38,804 nt of DNA. It comes from a virus. Under the pieces are notes generated by a model, which saw nothing but the letters and a program-made list of their open reading frames with translations, was not told where the DNA came from and ran no database searches. Both the position numbers and the translations under genes were made by a program. Location of the stretch: positions 1-38,804 of the IMG/VR virus record IMGVR_UViG_3300032397_003225. One strand, given 5' to 3'. Below, in pieces: positions 4,921-18,300 of the stretch; within the stretch, counting starts at the first letter, position 1, and each line of letters opens with the position of its first letter.

Positions 4921-6816
4921 ATGGAACACAAGGTTTACAAGTACGGCCTGCATCCACCCACAGAGGGGGTGGAATTGGTTCTGCAACAGATGATGCTTGC
5001 CCATCGCTACCAGAACGAGCTCATTGCGATCGAATGCACCAGACGTGCTGCGGTGCGTGAGGTGTACAACACCTACCCGACCATCATCCCCTTGCAAGAG
5101 GAGATCAAACCGCTCGTGGCACGACTCAGTGAGGCCGGGAACACCATCAAGGCGCAACGGCAGCAGGACAAGGCCAACTCGGAAACGAATGAGCAGAAAG
5201 AACTGGTCAAGCAATTGAAGGCTGAGCTGAAGCCCCTTCGAGCACAGCTGAAGGAAGCAAGTCAAGCCTTGAAGAAGGACGTGGTAGCTCAAGCCAAGTT
5301 TGCTGCAGCCGAAGCGCTTTGCAAGCAGCAGCGGAAACTCGCTCGTGACAGTTGTGGGGTCTTCTGGGGCAGCTCTGCGATAAAGGTGGCTGCAGTGGAC
5401 GCTGCACGGGACGCCACCTGGCTATGGCGTGATGGCGAGCCCAATGACCCACACTTCAAGCGCTGGGAAGGTTATGGTTCAGTCGCCGTGCAGCTGCAGC
5501 ATGGATTATCAGTGGAAGACTTGCTTGCCGGCAAGGACCAGAGAGCACGGCTTGTCACAACAGAGCCACCTCCCGTTATCGTTCAGGACAGGCCAGGTCG
5601 TGGACCACGACCTGTTCTGAAGGATGACAGCAAACGGACAAAGAGGCGCCAACGGTACACGTTGTGGCTGCGTGTCAGCTCGGAAGGCCGCGCGCCCATC
5701 TGGGCGAAGTGGCACTGTCTCATGCATCGGTCGTTGCCAGAGGGTGCAGAGGTGACCTGGGCGAAGGTCATCAAGGAGCGCCTGGCTGGCAAAGACAGGT
5801 GGTCGCTGCATCTGACATTGCGAATCCCAGATTCAGAAACCGTCCAAGGTCATCCTTTCTGGGATGACGTCGAGTCCGTCAGCAAGAAGCAGAAGCCGAC
5901 TGGTGTTGTAGCACTTGATCTCGGATGGCGACGGGTGGATGCTGGTCTCCGGGCTGCATATGCAATCGGAGATGATGGCACGCATTATGAGTTGATCCTT
6001 GGCCCGGAGATTGAGAAACGGCTGGATAGAATCGATGGTAAAGACGGACTCGAATCTATTCGCAAGAAGAACTTCAATGCGATGCAAGAATGGCTCGTCG
6101 CCTGGATGGCAGGCAATCCGGTGCCTGACAGTATCAAGGAGAGAGCGAAGACCTTGGCCAAGTGGGAATCACAGGCCAGACTCGCTGCGCTCACGTTGCT
6201 ATGGCGTGACAATCGTTTCGACGGAGATGACGAGGTGTTCACCAGGTTGGAGGAATGGCGAAAGCAAGACAAGCATCTATGGTCGTGGGAAACTCATTTG
6301 CGCGATAAGGTATTGCGAAGACGAAAGCATCAATACCGGGAGTTCGCAGCCAAGCTTGCAAAGATATATGGCACGCTCATACTTGAGAATCTGGATCTGC
6401 GAGATTTCCAGAAGCGTGAAAAAACCAAGGATGGTAAGAAGACCGCAAAACCACCGAGAACGCAACAGAAGACGGTTTCACCCAGCGAGCTACGGCTGTG
6501 CCTGCTGAATGCCTTCTCCTCCAATTGTGGCCTGGCAGCATGGGTTGAGCCGGCCAATACAACCCTGACGTGTCATGCCTGCGGCCTAGTAGAGAAATGG
6601 GATACGGCGAAGGAACTGATTCATACCTGCTCCGGTTGCAAGACCCTATGGGACCAGGATGCCAACGCATGCCAGAACTTCTTGCACATGTTTTGCAAGT
6701 GGTGCGATGGCAGCCTGACAGTGGAATTGATAAGGGTCGAAGACTTCAGGGTTAAGGAGCTTCAAGAATCCAAGTGGGCAAAGCTTAATCGGAACCGCTC
6801 GAAAGACGATGGCTAA
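4921..6816 (+). CDS. cas12m: Cas12m CRISPR effector (type V-M, formerly V-U1/C2c4)
   Basis: A compact 631-aa RNA-guided DNA-binding effector with its CRISPR array immediately downstream. The N-terminal recognition part (LAHRYQNEL at about 26-34, a long coiled coil at about 55-140, then RWEGYGSVAVQLQ at 181-193) and the whole-length layout match Cas12m as I recall it from Mycolicibacterium, about 600 aa. RuvC-I is GVVALDLGWR (Asp333), RuvC-II is LILENLDL (Glu489), the zinc ribbon is Cys551/554/570/573, and RuvC-III is DQDANACQNF (Asp580). Studied Cas12m proteins bind DNA and repress transcription without cutting, which is tied to a degenerate RuvC site; here all three acidic residues appear present. 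No adaptation genes adjoin it. Assignment to V-M rather than another small Cas12 rests on remembered similarity, so the subtype is less certain than the Cas12 call. Confidence 0.88.
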   Translation: MEHKVYKYGLHPPTEGVELVLQQMMLAHRYQNELIAIECTRRAAVREVYNTYPTIIPLQEEIKPLVARLSEAGNTIKAQRQQDKANSETNEQKELVKQLKAELKPLRAQLKEASQALKKDVVAQAKFAAAEALCKQQRKLARDSCGVFWGSSAIKVAAVDAARDATWLWRDGEPNDPHFKRWEGYGSVAVQLQHGLSVEDLLAGKDQRARLVTTEPPPVIVQDRPGRGPRPVLKDDSKRTKRRQRYTLWLRVSSEGRAPIWAKWHCLMHRSLPEGAEVTWAKVIKERLAGKDRWSLHLTLRIPDSETVQGHPFWDDVESVSKKQKPTGVVALDLGWRRVDAGLRAAYAIGDDGTHYELILGPEIEKRLDRIDGKDGLESIRKKNFNAMQEWLVAWMAGNPVPDSIKERAKTLAKWESQARLAALTLLWRDNRFDGDDEVFTRLEEWRKQDKHLWSWETHLRDKVLRRRKHQYREFAAKLAKIYGTLILENLDLRDFQKREKTKDGKKTAKPPRTQQKTVSPSELRLCLLNAFSSNCGLAAWVEPANTTLTCHACGLVEKWDTAKELIHTCSGCKTLWDQDANACQNFLHMFCKWCDGSLTVELIRVEDFRVKELQESKWAKLNRNRSKDDG

Positions 6817-6848: not shown

Positions 6849-7511
6849 GAAACAACGCCCGTGCAGAGGCAGTGTATCTGCAACGACCTCCCTGCAGGCG
6901 CCACATGGCATCCCCAGCCCAGAAACAACGCCCGTGCAGAGGTAGTGTATCTGCAACCTGGAGGAGCGAGACAGAAACAACGCCCGTGCAGAGGCAGTGT
7001 ATCTGCAACGCTTGGACAATCGCACGTGCGGAATGCGCCGAAAGTGAAGAAACAACGCCCGTGCAGAGGCAACGTATTTGCAACCCACCCCGACGACAGC
7101 AACGTCAGCACCAGCGCAGTGGAAACAACGCCCGTGCAGAGGTAGTGTATCTGCAACCTGGAGGAGGTCGATAGGTATCGATATACCCTTGGGAAACAAC
7201 GCCCGTGTAGAGGCAGTGTATCTGCAACTGGTAGTCTGGTGGTGCCTGTGCTAGGCGGTCACAGTTGAAACAACGCCCGTGCAGAGGCAGTGTATCTGCA
7301 ACTGGCAGGACCGTATCCTCGGGCAGAGCAGGACAACCGTCAGAAACAACGCCCGTGCAGAGGCAGTGTATCTGCAACCGCCACTATCCCTTGCTGCCTC
7401 GGGTCAAGGCCAATAGGGAAACAACGCCCGTGCAGAGGCAGTGTAGCTGCAATGCTGTCCAGCAGCTCCACAACCGGGGCCGCGAGTACGGAAACAACGC
7501 CCGTGCAGAGG
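6849..7511 (+). CRISPR. CRISPR array: 9 full repeats, 1 truncated repeat, 9 spacers
   Basis: Thirty-six-base repeats start at 6849, 6922, 6974, 7049, 7122, 7193, 7267, 7343 and 7418; a terminal repeat at 7491-7511 keeps only the first 21 bases. Each begins GAAACAACGCCCGTG and most end TATCTGCAAC. Spacers are 37, 16, 39, 37, 35, 38, 40, 39 and 37 nt. The 3' part folds as GCAGA/TCTGC around a 9-nt loop, next to the spacer as in other type V crRNAs, which fits transcription on the plus strand. Repeats 4 (TTTGC) and 6 (GTAGA) keep the stem by G-U wobble. Repeat 9 (TAGCTGCAAT) and the cut terminal repeat show decay at the distal end. Only 32 bp separate the cas12m stop from the first repeat, so it is probably transcribed with cas12m. 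Confidence 0.98.
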
Positions 7512-7649
7512 AAACACGAGATTTGCCAATGCTATATGCATAAACATCACTCGCCCACCCTCCGGCCCTCAGGCTACATTCAGTCCAGTTCATAAGTCAA
7601 TAGAAAAGACTCCACCAGGCAGCAAAAACACTTGATGTGGAAAGAAGCC

Positions 7650-8227: not shown

Positions 8228-8476
8228 CTACTCGCCTGCGGCGCGTTTGGCTCGCTGCCACTGTGGTGTCTCATGATGCGAGTGGTAGATCTCGAGGAGC
8301 CTGCTGGCCAGCAGGAGCCCTCTGAGTTTCACCGGGAGGCAAGCTTCAACGCTGATAGGAATTCCTGGTACGAGTAGTCTAAGACGGTGCAGGAAGTTTT
8401 CACAGAACTGCCTGAACTCCGGATCCCTCTTCAGTTCCAGTTGGGCAAAGTTCACCGTCGATTGGTGGGTCAGCAA
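8228..8476 (-). CDS. Small hypothetical protein (82 aa)
   Basis: An open frame with protein-like composition (LELKRDPEFRQFCENFLHRLRLL, then LRGLLLASRLLEIYHSHHETP) lying between the ATPase and the Cys-cluster gene on the same strand. It contains no internal ATG; the listed start is TTG at 8476 inside the 3' end of the ATPase gene (77-bp overlap), and a GTG at 8455 is an alternative. The stop is 24 bp before the next start. No family recognised; start uncertain. Confidence 0.5.
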   Translation of the reverse strand: MLTHQSTVNFAQLELKRDPEFRQFCENFLHRLRLLVPGIPISVEACLPVKLRGLLLASRLLEIYHSHHETPQWQRAKRAAGE

Positions 8477-9614
8477 GGTCTGCCCCCGATGGCTCCACGT
8501 TGATCATGTCGTACTGGCGGAGCTCACTTTCCTCATACTTTACCATAATTGCAGCCGCGTCAACAATACTTAGTGGCACCAGCGGTCGCCATGCGGGCAC
8601 CTTCTTGCTACGCGAACCGTCTGTTCCAAAAGCACGTTTAACTTCGCCATCTTTCACGATCATCCCCTCCTTCTCTAGATCCGCGAGCGCCTCCACGATT
8701 CTTTCCTGACGCACTCCAATCATCTCCGCCAGCATCAGGTTCGTCATCGGCTGATCAGAAGAGCGAAGCGCTGAATAGAGCTTGCTTTTGAAATACCCTC
8801 TGACAACGGCCGAGGCGTCCTTTCCATCGAAATACACAAAGGTTGTATGATTCAGTGCCTTGTCTATGATTGGCACCGCCGAGAACATGTGCCCCTTCGG
8901 TCCATTCCGCTGCTTCAAACTCTCCAGTGTTATGATCTCCGTTGGCTCCGGCAGGCCGAGCTTCTTCTTGCTCAGCTTGACATGAAGCACTGCATCCGCC
9001 CACCCGTACCAAGCAGAGCTTCCACGCAGCGATGCACGATTGCTCTTGCTGTTCTTGTCCCCCCCTGGCACTTTCGTCTGATGATGAATGATGAGGAACG
9101 CGCACTTGTACTCGTCGATCAGTCTGTCGACGGTGCGTCGAAGTGCCTTCGTCTCCTTACTGGAGTTCTCATCTCCCGAGAAGAAACTGTCGAGGGGATC
9201 TAACACCACCAGCATTGGTTTGTGCTTCTTGATCAACCCTTCGAGCTCGATGATATCGGTCGCATCGTCGAGGCCGAACGGTTGCTGACATATGTAGAGA
9301 GGCATGTCGAAGGGATTGACTCCATGTGCTCTGATGTGCGATAGCAGTCGGTCCCTATTGTCAAAGATAGATCCCTCCGTCGAATTCAGAAAGACCGGTC
9401 CATGCTGCAGCACGTCTATCTGTCGCAACAGGCGCCCACCAGATGCAATCGCAACGCATAAGTCAAATGATATTGCAGACTTGTAACTGCCGCCTTCGCC
9501 GAACAGGAAGATGCGATTGCACTTCTGCATCATGTCCTTCACGATCCAACGGTTTGGATCTTCCTGCAGTGACAGCAGTTCGCGTGCAGAATATACTTGA
9601 TGTTTTCTCGCCAT
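8400..9614 (-). CDS. RepA/RadA-fold ATPase (AAA_25-like), putative replicative helicase
   Basis: A 404-aa RecA-fold P-loop ATPase resembling the hexameric RSF1010 RepA type helicases found in plasmids and phages. Walker A is GEGGSYKS (39-46), Walker B is MLVVLDPLDSFF, followed by the sensor-like FLIIHHQTKV and an arginine-rich RASLRGSSAWYGWADAV segment. The C-terminal third holds a winged-helix-like part (MTNLMLAEMIGVRQERIVEALADLEKEGMIVKDGEV), typical of these proteins. The ATG at 9614 is preferred over the in-frame start at 9653 because AGAGGGG lies directly before it. It is transcribed divergently from the SNF2-type helicase and likely acts at the replication fork or origin. Confidence 0.85.
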   Translation of the reverse strand: MARKHQVYSARELLSLQEDPNRWIVKDMMQKCNRIFLFGEGGSYKSAISFDLCVAIASGGRLLRQIDVLQHGPVFLNSTEGSIFDNRDRLLSHIRAHGVNPFDMPLYICQQPFGLDDATDIIELEGLIKKHKPMLVVLDPLDSFFSGDENSSKETKALRRTVDRLIDEYKCAFLIIHHQTKVPGGDKNSKSNRASLRGSSAWYGWADAVLHVKLSKKKLGLPEPTEIITLESLKQRNGPKGHMFSAVPIIDKALNHTTFVYFDGKDASAVVRGYFKSKLYSALRSSDQPMTNLMLAEMIGVRQERIVEALADLEKEGMIVKDGEVKRAFGTDGSRSKKVPAWRPLVPLSIVDAAAIMVKYEESELRQYDMINVEPSGADLADPPIDGELCPTGTEEGSGVQAVL

Positions 9615-9837
9615 AACCCCTCTTTGACTTTCACCCACTTGAGCATACCCCAATCAGTTTTGTCAAGCACGACGTGAAATCCTTATTGATGCTCGACATG
9701 TCCGTGGTAGGAATTCGTGCGAGTAGAATTCACACCGGATGCACATGGCTATTTCCTGTTGAGCGTCTGCTGACTTGCACGAAAGCACGTTTTACTTCTT
9801 GACTGCCTCCTTGTCGAGCTGATAGGACTGGCAACCG
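9615..9837. promoter_or_regulatory. Divergent intergenic region between two replication genes
   Basis: This 223-bp gap should carry both divergent promoters. Candidates are weak: on the plus strand TTGACT (9799-9804), 18 bp, then TAGGAC, with AGGA at 9824-9827 as ribosome binding site for the helicase; on the minus strand a TTGACA followed by TATGCT at only 13 bp. No gene is seen. The position between two replication ATPases also makes it a candidate origin, but I see no iterons. Confidence 0.35.
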
Positions 9838-12693
9838 ATGCGCCCCATCCCTCCCGACGCTCTCGAGGGTTCAATTGTATCGTGCCCAACAAAGTGGCGG
9901 GGGCGATGGAAGCTCGAGCACTGTCCATCGCAGACACAATTCGAGCTGCTGAAGCAGCATCCGGGCGTGGTGCCGGGGCAAAGCAAGAACCCCGAGGATT
10001 GCGGCTGGTTCGTGCCGCAATCATTGATCGACTCCGGTCGATATCCCGCCAATCTTGAAGACTTTCCCCCAGAACCAAACAACATCACACCATCTGGCCT
10101 TGTACTCAGAGACTATGAAACTCGTGCCGTCACCTTCTGCAGACAGGTTACATTGTATCGCGAAGGCTGCATCGTCGCCGCCGATCCCGGTTTAGGAAAA
10201 GAACAGCCAATTAGCACACCTGTGCTGACACCGACTGGTTATAGACCGATTGGAGATATGGCACCTGGTGATCTAGTCATTGGAGCCAGTGGGCGTCCAA
10301 CCGTGGTGCGAGCTGTTTTCCCACAGGGCGTGAAACCGATTTACGAACTCGTATTCAGCGATGGCGCCACCGCTGCGTGTGGATTAGACCATCTGTGGGC
10401 AGTTCAAACGCTGAACGATCGCAAGCGAGGGCACGCCTTTCGCATCATGTCTTTGCGAGCGTTCAAGGATGACCTGACTCGCGGACGCGGTTTGAAACAA
10501 AGCTGGTATTTCGTACCGTTGACACAGCCTATAGTGTATTCGGATCGCACGGATGAATTGCCTATCGATCCTTACCTGTTAGGAGTGCTTCTCGGTGATG
10601 GCGGCTTCAGAGGGACCGATGTGACTCTGAGCAATCCGGAAAGCGACATTGTGCAACATGTTCGATCGGCGTGCGCCGGGTACGGAATACATCTTGGTCC
10701 GGGTTCCGATTCAATTTCGTATAGATTATCTGGAGTATCCGGAAGTCCTAATACCGTCAAACGTGCCATTGAATCCCTTGGTCTGTGGGGCTTGTATTCA
10801 GAGGAAAAGTTTGTTCCATCCATGTACCTCTTGGCGAGTCCACAAGCGCGCCTGGAGGTGCTACGTGGGCTAATGGATACCGATGGGACAATCACGCCAG
10901 ATGGGCACACATTGCAGTTCGGCACGAGTTCGCCACGGCTTTGCGCCGATGCGACGAACCTGATACGTAGCCTAGGAGGCATAGCCCGTGTGAGCGACCG
11001 TATACCGCATTTTTCATACCGGGGGGAGTACAGAACGGGACTGCGTGCATATGTGGTATCGATGAGAATGCCATCTGGACTCGTTCCTTTTTCTTCGGAA
11101 AAGCATCACGCGAAATGGATTCCAAATAGCAAGTATCAGCCATCCAGGGCAATACGATCAGTGGAACCGCATGGAGAAGAAGAGTGCGTGTGCATTAACG
11201 TCTCAGCCCCTGACGGGTTGTATGTGACAGACAACTTTGTAGTGACGCATAATTCTATGATATCATTGCATTCTTTACACCTGGATGGGTATTTGAACAG
11301 ACCGGGATTGGTCATCGGGCCGAACATCGCCAAGGGTGTTTGGTGCGACAAGGATTCTGATGCCTTCAGGCATTATGGTCTGACCATCCTTCCACTGGAA
11401 AAGGTGAAAGGCCTTGACGTTGATGTGTTGAGCAGACATACAACGTTCTTCATTCATCACGAACTGCTCGATGCATGGCAGGGTTGGATATTCGCAAAGT
11501 TGTCTCCCACCTGGCTCATTATAGATGAAATACACCTGCTGGCCAATCGAAAAGCACAGCGCTCGAATGCTGGCATGCAGATCACCCTGGCCGCCAGTAT
11601 TGAACGACGATATGGATTGACTGGCACCCCAATACCAAACGAGCGTCTGGAGTTGTGGCATCAACTAGCCATGGTCCAACCACGACAATGGTCCGCAACC
11701 TCGTTTTCCTTTGGTGTTCGCTACTGTAACGGCCACAGGACCGAGGTTGAGGCTGGAGGAGTCGGCGGCCACTGGGTTTTCGACGGTGAATCCAACGACA
11801 TGGAGCTCAAGGCCAGATTAGCTGGAACATTCCTTCGATTCACCACGGAGGAAGTGCAACATGAGCTTCCGCCGATGGAGCGACATGTTGTTGAAGCGGT
11901 ATGCCATGATGAGGCCTTGCAAGAGGAGTACTCCTTTGCCCAACGAGACATAGTCAAGTACCTGCGCCATCGCAACAAGAACGTCGAAGAGGAAACTGAG
12001 ACTATTTCCATCGGTGGTACGACCATCAAGCTGAAGAAGGTCGAACGCAAACCAAAAGCAGTGAGGTTGGTTTGCATCTCCACGCTGATCGGCTTGCTGT
12101 CGAAGATGAAACAGGAGCCAGCACTACAGGCTGTGGATGAGATCATGCACCACCACAATAGGTTGGTGGTCTTCACGCTTCGCGTCGCAACGGCGGAGTG
12201 GATTTTCAACAGCTTGGCTGACCGACTGGCTGCTGGTCAGACCGTCGGTGGCAAGTGTCCAGATCTATTCGGCCCGGTGCACGGCGAGATGCACATGGAC
12301 GAGCGGAAGGCATTGGCAGCCAATTTTGCAGAGGCGCAGAGCGGGATCTACATCGCCACGATGGGCTCGGCTGGAACTTCCATCAACTCGTTGTCCACGG
12401 CCTCATCCGCGTTGCTGGTCGACCTGCACTGGAACACGGCCATCCTCCGTCAGGCAGAGAAGCGAGTGCATCGTGATGGCTCCAGGGCTTCGCACGTTGA
12501 CATCTACTACCTCGTGCTACGTGGCACGGTGGACGATCTGTTCATGGAGAAGTTGCGCGAGAAGGCAGAGCGCGCTGTGAGCCTCGCCGAACGTGACACA
12601 TCAGGCGTGTCGCTGGTGCGAGATCTGTCGCCGGCCAATTCAGGTCCGGTTGACGTTGACCTACTCTGCGAACGCCTGATGGACATGGATTGA
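9838..12693 (+). CDS. SNF2/DEAD-like SF2 helicase (intein-containing precursor)
   Basis: Superfamily 2 helicase of the SNF2-like phage type. The N-terminus (about 1-100) is a divergent region; Walker A is AADPGLGK joined to SMISLHSL after splicing. Then WLIIDEIHLLANR (DEIH, motif II), YGLTGTPIPNERLELWHQL (motif III), VVFTLRVATAEWIF (motif IV), and ALLVDLHWNTAILRQAEKRVHRDGS (motifs V-VI). The precursor is 951 aa; the mature helicase is about 600 aa after removal of the 351-aa intein. ATG 9838 is preceded by AGGA ten bases upstream. It heads the long plus-strand replication run and probably remodels or unwinds DNA during replication or recombination. Confidence 0.9.
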   Translation: MRPIPPDALEGSIVSCPTKWRGRWKLEHCPSQTQFELLKQHPGVVPGQSKNPEDCGWFVPQSLIDSGRYPANLEDFPPEPNNITPSGLVLRDYETRAVTFCRQVTLYREGCIVAADPGLGKEQPISTPVLTPTGYRPIGDMAPGDLVIGASGRPTVVRAVFPQGVKPIYELVFSDGATAACGLDHLWAVQTLNDRKRGHAFRIMSLRAFKDDLTRGRGLKQSWYFVPLTQPIVYSDRTDELPIDPYLLGVLLGDGGFRGTDVTLSNPESDIVQHVRSACAGYGIHLGPGSDSISYRLSGVSGSPNTVKRAIESLGLWGLYSEEKFVPSMYLLASPQARLEVLRGLMDTDGTITPDGHTLQFGTSSPRLCADATNLIRSLGGIARVSDRIPHFSYRGEYRTGLRAYVVSMRMPSGLVPFSSEKHHAKWIPNSKYQPSRAIRSVEPHGEEECVCINVSAPDGLYVTDNFVVTHNSMISLHSLHLDGYLNRPGLVIGPNIAKGVWCDKDSDAFRHYGLTILPLEKVKGLDVDVLSRHTTFFIHHELLDAWQGWIFAKLSPTWLIIDEIHLLANRKAQRSNAGMQITLAASIERRYGLTGTPIPNERLELWHQLAMVQPRQWSATSFSFGVRYCNGHRTEVEAGGVGGHWVFDGESNDMELKARLAGTFLRFTTEEVQHELPPMERHVVEAVCHDEALQEEYSFAQRDIVKYLRHRNKNVEEETETISIGGTTIKLKKVERKPKAVRLVCISTLIGLLSKMKQEPALQAVDEIMHHHNRLVVFTLRVATAEWIFNSLADRLAAGQTVGGKCPDLFGPVHGEMHMDERKALAANFAEAQSGIYIATMGSAGTSINSLSTASSALLVDLHWNTAILRQAEKRVHRDGSRASHVDIYYLVLRGTVDDLFMEKLREKAERAVSLAERDTSGVSLVRDLSPANSGPVDVDLLCERLMDMD
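10201..11253 (+). other. Class 3 intein with LAGLIDADG endonuclease in Walker A
   Basis: A 351-aa intein (residues 122-472 of the precursor). It begins with Glu (EQPISTPVLTPTG), not Cys or Ser, and shows the class 3 triplet: Trp187 in DHLWAV (block B), Cys452 in CINV (block F) and Thr470 in VVTHN (block G), followed by Ser+1. That Ser completes the GLGK-S Walker A, so the helicase cannot bind ATP properly before splicing. Two LAGLIDADG motifs, LLGVLLGDGG (about 246-255) and LRGLMDTDG (about 342-350), both keep their Asp, so the homing endonuclease may be active. Confidence 0.92.
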
Positions 12694-15392: not shown

Positions 15393-18300
15393 TGACCTAC
15401 GTCATTCCTGTGGTTCATCCTGCGGCATTGTTGAGAGGTGGTCATCCCATCTCCGACATCATACGCATGGACTTGGCCAAGGCTCTACGTCTGACAGCAG
15501 AGGCTCCACGTCAGCGAGAGAACCTGGTGATAGTGCACCCATCAAATCCGTTGGGTCTGACCCAAGTGGTGCGTATCGCACTGGCCTGGCTTGAACGCTG
15601 GCAGGACATGGGTGTCACGACGGCTGTTGATGTTGAGACGTCTTCACTGAACTTCTTCGCCTGTAAGCTCTATTCCATCGCGCTATCCGGAGAGGATGGT
15701 TGTGACACAGCAATTGCATTCACTTTGATGGACAAGAGAACATTGCCCTGGGACGCCGAGGTTGCAATGGTGACTGCAACCCGGGCACTGTTGGCGAATC
15801 CACGAGTGTCCAAACTCTTTCACAATGCACCATATGACTTTGCCGTGCTGCACCAGAAGAATATGCCTGTCATCGGTCCAATCGAGGACACACAGGCCTA
15901 CGCGCACCTACGTCAGTGCGACATACCAAAAGACTTGGGTTTCATTGGCCAGACATTCCTGGATGTAGAGCCATGGAAGCTCAACCATGAAGGGAAGAAG
16001 CAAGCCTTCACGACTGATGCCATAGAGCTTCTTATCTACAACGCCAAGGATGCACTGAACACGATGAAACTGCGGCGGCCATTGCTTGAATCACTGGCCG
16101 GCCGCGGTTGCACACCAGCACTCCTTGAGTTTCAGAATGGCATGGCCCGGCTGGCTGCGCGCATGGAGCTCACAGGATTGCCGATCAACTTCGAGAAGCG
16201 TCGGGCGATGGGCAAGAAGCTTCTGGTGAAGCTTGAGGAGCTACGTGGACGCATGTGCTCCTATCTTAGCTGGCCTGATTTCAATCCGATGAACAAGAAC
16301 CATGCGGTTCGCGCATTGTACGACAGGAAGTACTTAGGACTGATGCCAACTGCATGGACTCCCAAGACTAAGCAACCAAGTACCAAGTATGAACACATCA
16401 TCGATCACATGGAGAATCCATTTGTAAAGTCATTCATAGACTATGTGGAGAATCATCACGTGCATGCAACACAATATCGAGAAGAACCAGAACACAAAGG
16501 AGATCCAAAAGCTGGTGCTTACACTAGAGCCGTACAGTTGGATGGACGACTGCATTATAAATGCAATCCAACTGGACAAAAAGGCTCTAGAGTCTCAACC
16601 GAACCCAATTGCTTATCGGCCGATACGGAATTGCTCACAGAATTTGGATGGTTGACATTCCCTGAGGCAGAAAACAGGAATGCATTGGCCATACAATACA
16701 ATCCATCGACTGCGCAATCTGAGATCTCCAGCAGCACGCAGTATGTGCAGGGCGAGACTATGGAATGGATAGATGTGAAGACAGAGGCATTAACACTTCG
16801 CATGACGCCGAATCACAGAGTATTATTGCGACACAACCGCAAGGTGGACTACGCCCAGCAGCGTGTGGAGCGCACGGTCTGTGCCAATGACTTGCTAGGG
16901 GTAGTCCATGCTGGCAGCTCCATACCAAGTCGTGCCAGCAGTGGATTTGCTGGTGATGGTCTACAAATACCACCGGAGTATGTGTCCGTGATGTGCGCCT
17001 GCCAAGCTGATGGCTGGCTTCGCAAATATGGCAATGGAGAGGCCTGGGCTTTCTATTTATCTAAAATCAATAAAATAGAACGATTGGCTGCCGCATTGAC
17101 TTCCTGTGGGGAAGAAGCGAGTTGGTATTCCACTTCACTAGGACGAAAGAAACGAATCGGAGGACGTAAGCCAGAGACAGCGTTCTATATCAGGGACTGC
17201 AAGCTCAAGTTATGGATCGATGAGCATTTGAAACCGAATAAAGAATTTGGACCCTGGTTGCTGCAATGGAGTACGGAATCACTGAAAAATTTCGTGAGTG
17301 AGGTTGGCCAATGGGATGGCAGAGCAAGTAGTGGAGACGAATATTCCACAACTAGCAAATGCAACGCCGACTGGGTGCAGGCTGCAGCCGTAATAAGTGG
17401 TGCCAAGGCAGGATCCGTGTATACATTCTTTGGCAACAAATCAAAATCTCCATGTTATCAAATAACATCTGGTTGGCCAAAATGCGAAATGGGCTTCGCC
17501 AGAAAACACGTAACGTCCACCACGCTGGAGCATGCTGAGCCAACATTTTGCGTCACAGTGCCAAGTGGCTATATCTTTGTCAGAAGGAATGGAAGAGCTT
17601 GCATTACTGGAAATTGTCAGAATCAAAGGGTCGCAGACAGAGAGTTCTTCGAGGCCCCTGAAGGCAGGGTTTTTATAGGCAGTGACAAGGCGGCTCTAGA
17701 GCTTAGATTGGCCGCATGTATGGCTGGTGTTAGAGAACTACTGGACGAAATGGCAAAACCATCTGGCGACCCGCACAGATTGGCCGCCATTAACATCTAC
17801 GGAGATGCGTTTCTGGCGAAGACGAAGGAAGAACAGAAGAGGCTGCGCGATGCAGTGAAGACCACTGTCTACGCTTCATTGTATAGAGCGGGTGTCAAGA
17901 CAGTGCATAAATCAATACGCAAGAAGAAGTTTCTGGATACCGCCCTGCGTGCAGCTCTGACACTGGAGGCTGTAGGACACATTTATCACAGTTTTTTTGG
18001 CAAATACGTGGAAATACCGATTTGGCATGATTTCAACTATGAGGTGGCACAACACCAGGGATACGTAGAGACACCGCCGTTCGGCAGACGTCGTTATTTT
18101 CCAGTGCAGCCACCTCCATATACTGAAGTAAGTAACTGGATAATTCAAACTGCCGGTTCTGATATAGTTGGATATCAAATGATCCAAATACAGGAAGAGC
18201 TAGACCATAGATTTCATGGAGACGCCAGCATTATTCTGCATGGACACGATGCACTCTACATAGAGTGTGCCGAAATGCATGCAGAGACGGTGAAGAAAAT

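Follow-up and report, generated by a model that had tools for sequence, protein, structure and literature searches.

A class 3 intein with a LAGLIDADG endonuclease domain in the Walker A motif of a viral SNF2-family ATPase

Class 3 inteins are defined by a Trp at position B:12, a Cys at F:4 and a Thr at G:5 (the WCT triplet), combined with the lack of an N-terminal nucleophile (PMC3196547), and inteins in general have a documented propensity for P-loop ATPases (PMC5050341). DnaBi1 of Mycobacterium smegmatis (Msm) is a class 3 P-loop intein in which the P-loop Ser serves as the +1 residue and the block F Cys is required, the C118A variant being inactive (PMC6195587). MchDnaB1 is a class 3 intein of solved structure, for which Trp67, His65, Cys124 and Thr143 have been named (PMC7664689). 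The Snf2 intein of Deinococcus radiodurans (Dra) is likewise class 3, according to later papers that cite the original description (Brace et al., 2010, cited in PMC3196547 and PMC5222942), the title of which refers to a block F branched intermediate.

The window analysed here is a virus record of 38,804 bases, taken at its full length. On its plus strand, as are the exteins, the three inteins with their features and the Cas12-type gene located below, an open reading frame of 951 aa (9838..12693) encodes the precursor of an SNF2-family ATPase, with Pfam matches to SNF2-rel_dom (7.1e-11), LAGLIDADG_3 (2.6e-5) and Helicase_C (6.1e-5). A class 3 intein of 351 aa (E1 to N351, precursor E122-N472; 10201..11253), recognized by its ends, class residues and fold, sits between the Lys and the Ser of Walker A (DPGLGK/EQPIST...VVTHN/SMISLHSL, slashes marking the junctions). 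The N-extein (residues 1-121; 9838..10200) ends in DPGLGK, and the C-extein (residues 473-951; 11254..12693) begins with Ser473, the +1 residue; in intein numbering, precursor Cys452 is C331, Thr470 is T349 and residue 1 is Glu. Once the intein is removed, the joined exteins match SNF2-rel_dom (PF00176) over profile positions 1-288 of 290 (6.4e-13) and Helicase_C (PF00271) at 2.8e-5. The presence of both an SNF2-related domain, motif I included, and Helicase_C places the host protein in the SNF2 family. The coordinates and residue numbers of an earlier, sequence-only reading proved exact on translation, and its assignment of Ser473 as the +1 residue of the P-loop holds. That splicing would switch the helicase on, as was also proposed, is a sound inference.

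Both ends of the intein can be read directly from a syntenic relative, IMG/VR record IMGVR_UViG_3300043174_000147 (111,280 bases; locus L019, hereafter G001), which carries the same SNF2 gene without the insert. The relative was the single syntenic match when viral contigs were scanned using PolA as query; scans of the same collection that started from the precursor, or from its exteins once joined, found no relative. Its SNF2 protein is ~70% identical to that of the window, and the stretches of G001 that correspond to precursor residues 1-121 (62769-63134) and 473-950 (63135-64571) have zero bases between them. The P-loop accordingly reads DPGLGK-TVISLHSL in the relative, with Thr in place of the +1 Ser, versus DPGLGK/intein/SMISLHSL in the window. 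The two share a gene order comprising a PD-(D/E)XK-like gene, UvrD ... an AAA protein (8400-9653), SNF2, a Sak4-like gene, PolA and a DinG-like helicase, together with part of the structural genes; protein identities are 72% for the terminase-like protein, 72-74% for PolA and 78% for the Sak4-like protein. Empty insertion alleles, which the sequence-only reading had proposed to look for in related helicases, are thus represented by at least this one, and its contiguous flanks confirm the location in Walker A. The intein boundaries thus rest on observation rather than assumption, which makes Glu truly residue 1. A nucleophile at residue 1 after reannotation, one of the findings that the sequence-only reading had named as its own refutation, is excluded by the exact intein-free allele. 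For an ordinary class 1 intein whose ends had been misplaced, no supporting point was found; residue 1 is Glu, and the position of each end is set to the base by the intein-free allele, so that this explanation is already refuted and retains practically no probability. The agreement between reading frame, intein ends and class residues is far beyond chance.

The class residues were compared across 172 homologues drawn from phages, plasmids, viral contigs and genomes. Block B contains His64-Leu-Trp66 (precursor H185 and W187; 10390..10398), with the Trp of the triplet; block F contains Cys331 (11191..11193), the predicted splicing nucleophile; and block G comprises Thr349-His350-Asn351 (11245..11253), i.e., the Thr of the triplet and the terminal His-Asn, after which Ser473 follows as +1. 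H64, C331, T349, H350 and N351 are invariant (172/172) and W66 occurs in 169/172. In a smaller alignment of 12 phage and plasmid homologues, 35-42% identical to the intein of the window, W66, H64, C331 and T349 are present in 12/12; the nearest intein is ~46% identical. Alignment with MchDnaB1 pairs W66, H64, C331 and T349 with Trp67, His65, Cys124 and Thr143; the stretch with C331 and T349 is not significant by itself and is supported by the structural match described below. With no Cys, Ser or Thr at residue 1 and the WCT triplet formed by W66, C331 and T349, the class 3 identity is secure, as the sequence-only reading had held in assigning the triplet with Cys452. That reading had also called the splicing route uncommon, which holds for inteins generally but not for phage P-loop ATPases, given that 773 phage records match the intein.

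Splicing might nevertheless start elsewhere, either by direct attack of Ser+1, as in class 2, or from Cys450 (intein C329) instead of Cys452. Residue 1 is a non-nucleophile, as in class 2, and Cys450 lies only two residues from Cys452. However, the WCT triplet is complete, and Cys450 was rejected as its Cys, since position 329 is Cys in only 34/172 homologues, as opposed to 172/172 for C331. A start other than at Cys452 is therefore very unlikely. Residue 1 itself varies among the homologues, being Ala in 124 and Glu in the copy of the window and four others. Some class 3 homologues have a Cys (L159, 2498-3574) or a Ser at position 1 in addition to the block F Cys and the Thr.

The same survey ties the family strongly to the codon preceding the P-loop Ser/Thr. 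The intein comes after GK in 127/172 homologues, mostly at the end of a P-loop and many of them in SNF2-like helicases, and after GR in 35/172, nearly all in the PhoH-type context MRGR/T; Thr occupies the +1 position in 158 homologues, compared with 11 that have Ser and 3 that have Cys. Hosts include helicases, primase-helicases, PhoH-like and RecG-like proteins and secretion ATPases. In the homologue tree, 32 rows, that of the window included, have exteins resembling its SNF2 protein, and the PhoH and the RecG-like group each fall on a single side of a well-supported branch, while SNF2-hosted inteins are scattered. That SNF2 P-loops were invaded independently was considered, but host labels are incomplete and no number of invasions is claimed.

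An AlphaFold2 model of the intein, built on 37 sequences, has a pLDDT of 94.1 and a pTM of 0.92. By structural alignment with VIA-align, it matches PI-SceI (PDB 1lwt) from end to end (Z 27.5, rmsd 3.5 Å, 338 residues) and, in the splicing domain, the class 3 DnaB intein of Msm (6bs8_C; Z 19.6, rmsd 1.6 Å, 123 residues), and so the predicted model has the HINT splicing fold. Within residues 116-313 it matches the LAGLIDADG enzyme I-Tsp061I (2dch; Z 14.8, rmsd 3.4 Å, 172 residues). This region (10546..11139), also matched by Pfam LAGLIDADG_3, is the approximate extent of the endonuclease domain, for which the evidence consists of two motifs with Asp plus the endonuclease fold of the predicted model. 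The catalytic residues are D133 in LGVLLGDGG (10597-10599), kept in 170/172 homologues, and D228 in LRGLMDTDG (10882-10884), kept in 172/172; the viral and genome scan patterns were built from endonuclease motifs, D228 among them, and excluded the splicing residues, so that the conservation of the motifs across the 172 partly reflects how the homologues were chosen. Both Asp residues are intact, in agreement with the sequence-only reading, and homing endonuclease activity may be inferred.

Taken together, the locus almost certainly contains a full-length class 3 intein, with HINT and LAGLIDADG endonuclease domains, inserted between the Lys and Ser of Walker A of a phage SNF2-family ATPase. An intein of class 3 descent that no longer splices or no longer cuts DNA, within a decaying pseudogene or as an immobile element, is an unlikely alternative reading of the same sequence. 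Glu1 and the absent block B Asp (the position held by the DxxH Asp in Msm DnaBi1 is here Gly, at residue 61) do depart from the commonest pattern, and a class 3 intein pseudogene, Arth_1007, has been published (PMC3196547). Against such a loss, the frame is open through the whole precursor (9838-12693), every invariant splicing residue is in place, as are the two LAGLIDADG Asp residues, the predicted fold is complete and confident, and the SNF2 and Helicase_C domains are intact in the exteins.

For a functional class 3 intein, the splicing chemistry, the inactivity of the precursor and homing can be proposed from studied homologues. Cys452 (block F), helped by His185 (block B) and Thr470, would attack the Lys121-Glu122 bond and take up the N-extein, which would then move to Ser473. 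Cyclization of Asn472 would release the intein, and an O-N shift would yield ...DPGLGKSMISL..., with a complete P-loop; the ATPase is expected to be inactive before splicing. The endonuclease would be expected to cut intein-free P-loop alleles, leading to the intein being copied in. Third-position GC is 0.499 in the intein versus 0.630 in the exteins (permutation p ~1e-4), in line with a separate origin. A co-conversion footprint was considered but is not claimed: within 8 codons of the site, both third-position GC and the codons shared with the relative are low, few windows having values as small (10/583 and 11/569), but at 10, 12 or 15 codons the effect is no longer clear.

The window contains two other insertions of this kind. 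A UvrD-like helicase carries an intein of 141 aa without endonuclease (2434-2856; GDASQ/CHPPG...VVLN/SIYKW), which has Cys1 and a terminal Asn and matches intein models. PolA carries a probable intein of 335 aa (16610-17614; TEPN/CLSAD...CITGN/CQNQR), also with Cys1 and a terminal Asn, which matches the intein N-terminal model weakly; LAGLIDADG-like stretches (QADG and QWDG) occur in this insert. G001 is empty at both the UvrD (GDPSQ/SIYRW) and the PolA site (SEPN/VQNQR), and none of the three inteins of the window matched anywhere in that relative. All three lie in enzymes that replicate or repair DNA, and all are missing from a close relative; they might jointly gate viral replication post-translationally, with splicing of the SNF2 precursor made redox-sensitive by Cys450-X-Cys452, although we consider this combined proposal decidedly improbable. 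Redox-sensitive splicing has been shown for Msm DnaBi1, there with a different Cys partner.

The window also encodes a Cas12-type effector of 631 aa (4921-6816; PADLOC Cas12f 3e-105, Cas12u1 1e-104), followed by a CRISPR array (6849-7526) with 10 repeats, of which nine are 36 nt long (GAAACAACGCCCGTGCAGAGGCAGTGTATCTGCAAC) and the final one has a degenerate 3' end. The locus resembles a type V-U1 (Cas12m-like) system carried by a virus, a candidate subtype. The sole phage-record match to the effector is in Virus Rctr197k (32% identity), whose gene likewise lies beside an annotated CRISPR array; the whole array had no match among phage records. The Cas12 gene was not detected in G001, and the spacers had no convincing match in G001 or the other loci compared. 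The locus is perhaps the most interesting item of the window and merits separate study.

Among known systems, the SNF2 intein is like M. smegmatis DnaBi1 (DnaB-b site, PDB 6bs8) in its class 3 WCT triplet and P-loop site, and its splicing fold is the same as those of 6bs8 and MchDnaB1 (PDB 6rix/6riy; Z 18-20, rmsd 1.6-2.2 Å). DnaBi1 and MchDnaB1 are, however, mini-inteins without endonuclease hosted by DnaB, whereas that of the window has an endonuclease and an SNF2 host; DnaBi1 further has Ala1 and block B DxxH, in contrast to Glu1 and a Gly at the first DxxH position. PI-SceI, the yeast VMA intein and a class 1 intein, has the same splicing plus LAGLIDADG architecture at ~20% identity. The Dra Snf2 intein is likewise class 3 in an SNF2-family protein, from a bacterial genome, a likeness drawn from its published description. 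Further phage and bacterial P-loop class 3 inteins (for example L002, L003, L005, L096, L105 and L110) are inserted at the identical point and have both the class 3 and the LAGLIDADG Asp residues, but are mostly in other host ATPases and mostly have Ala1 and Thr+1. The arrangement of a class 3 intein at an ATP-binding loop is thus already well known and common in phages. The gain is modest, namely one fully bounded class 3 intein with a seemingly intact endonuclease, plus an allele from a relative that lacks the intein at this codon, which together make a ready pair for a homing or splicing assay.
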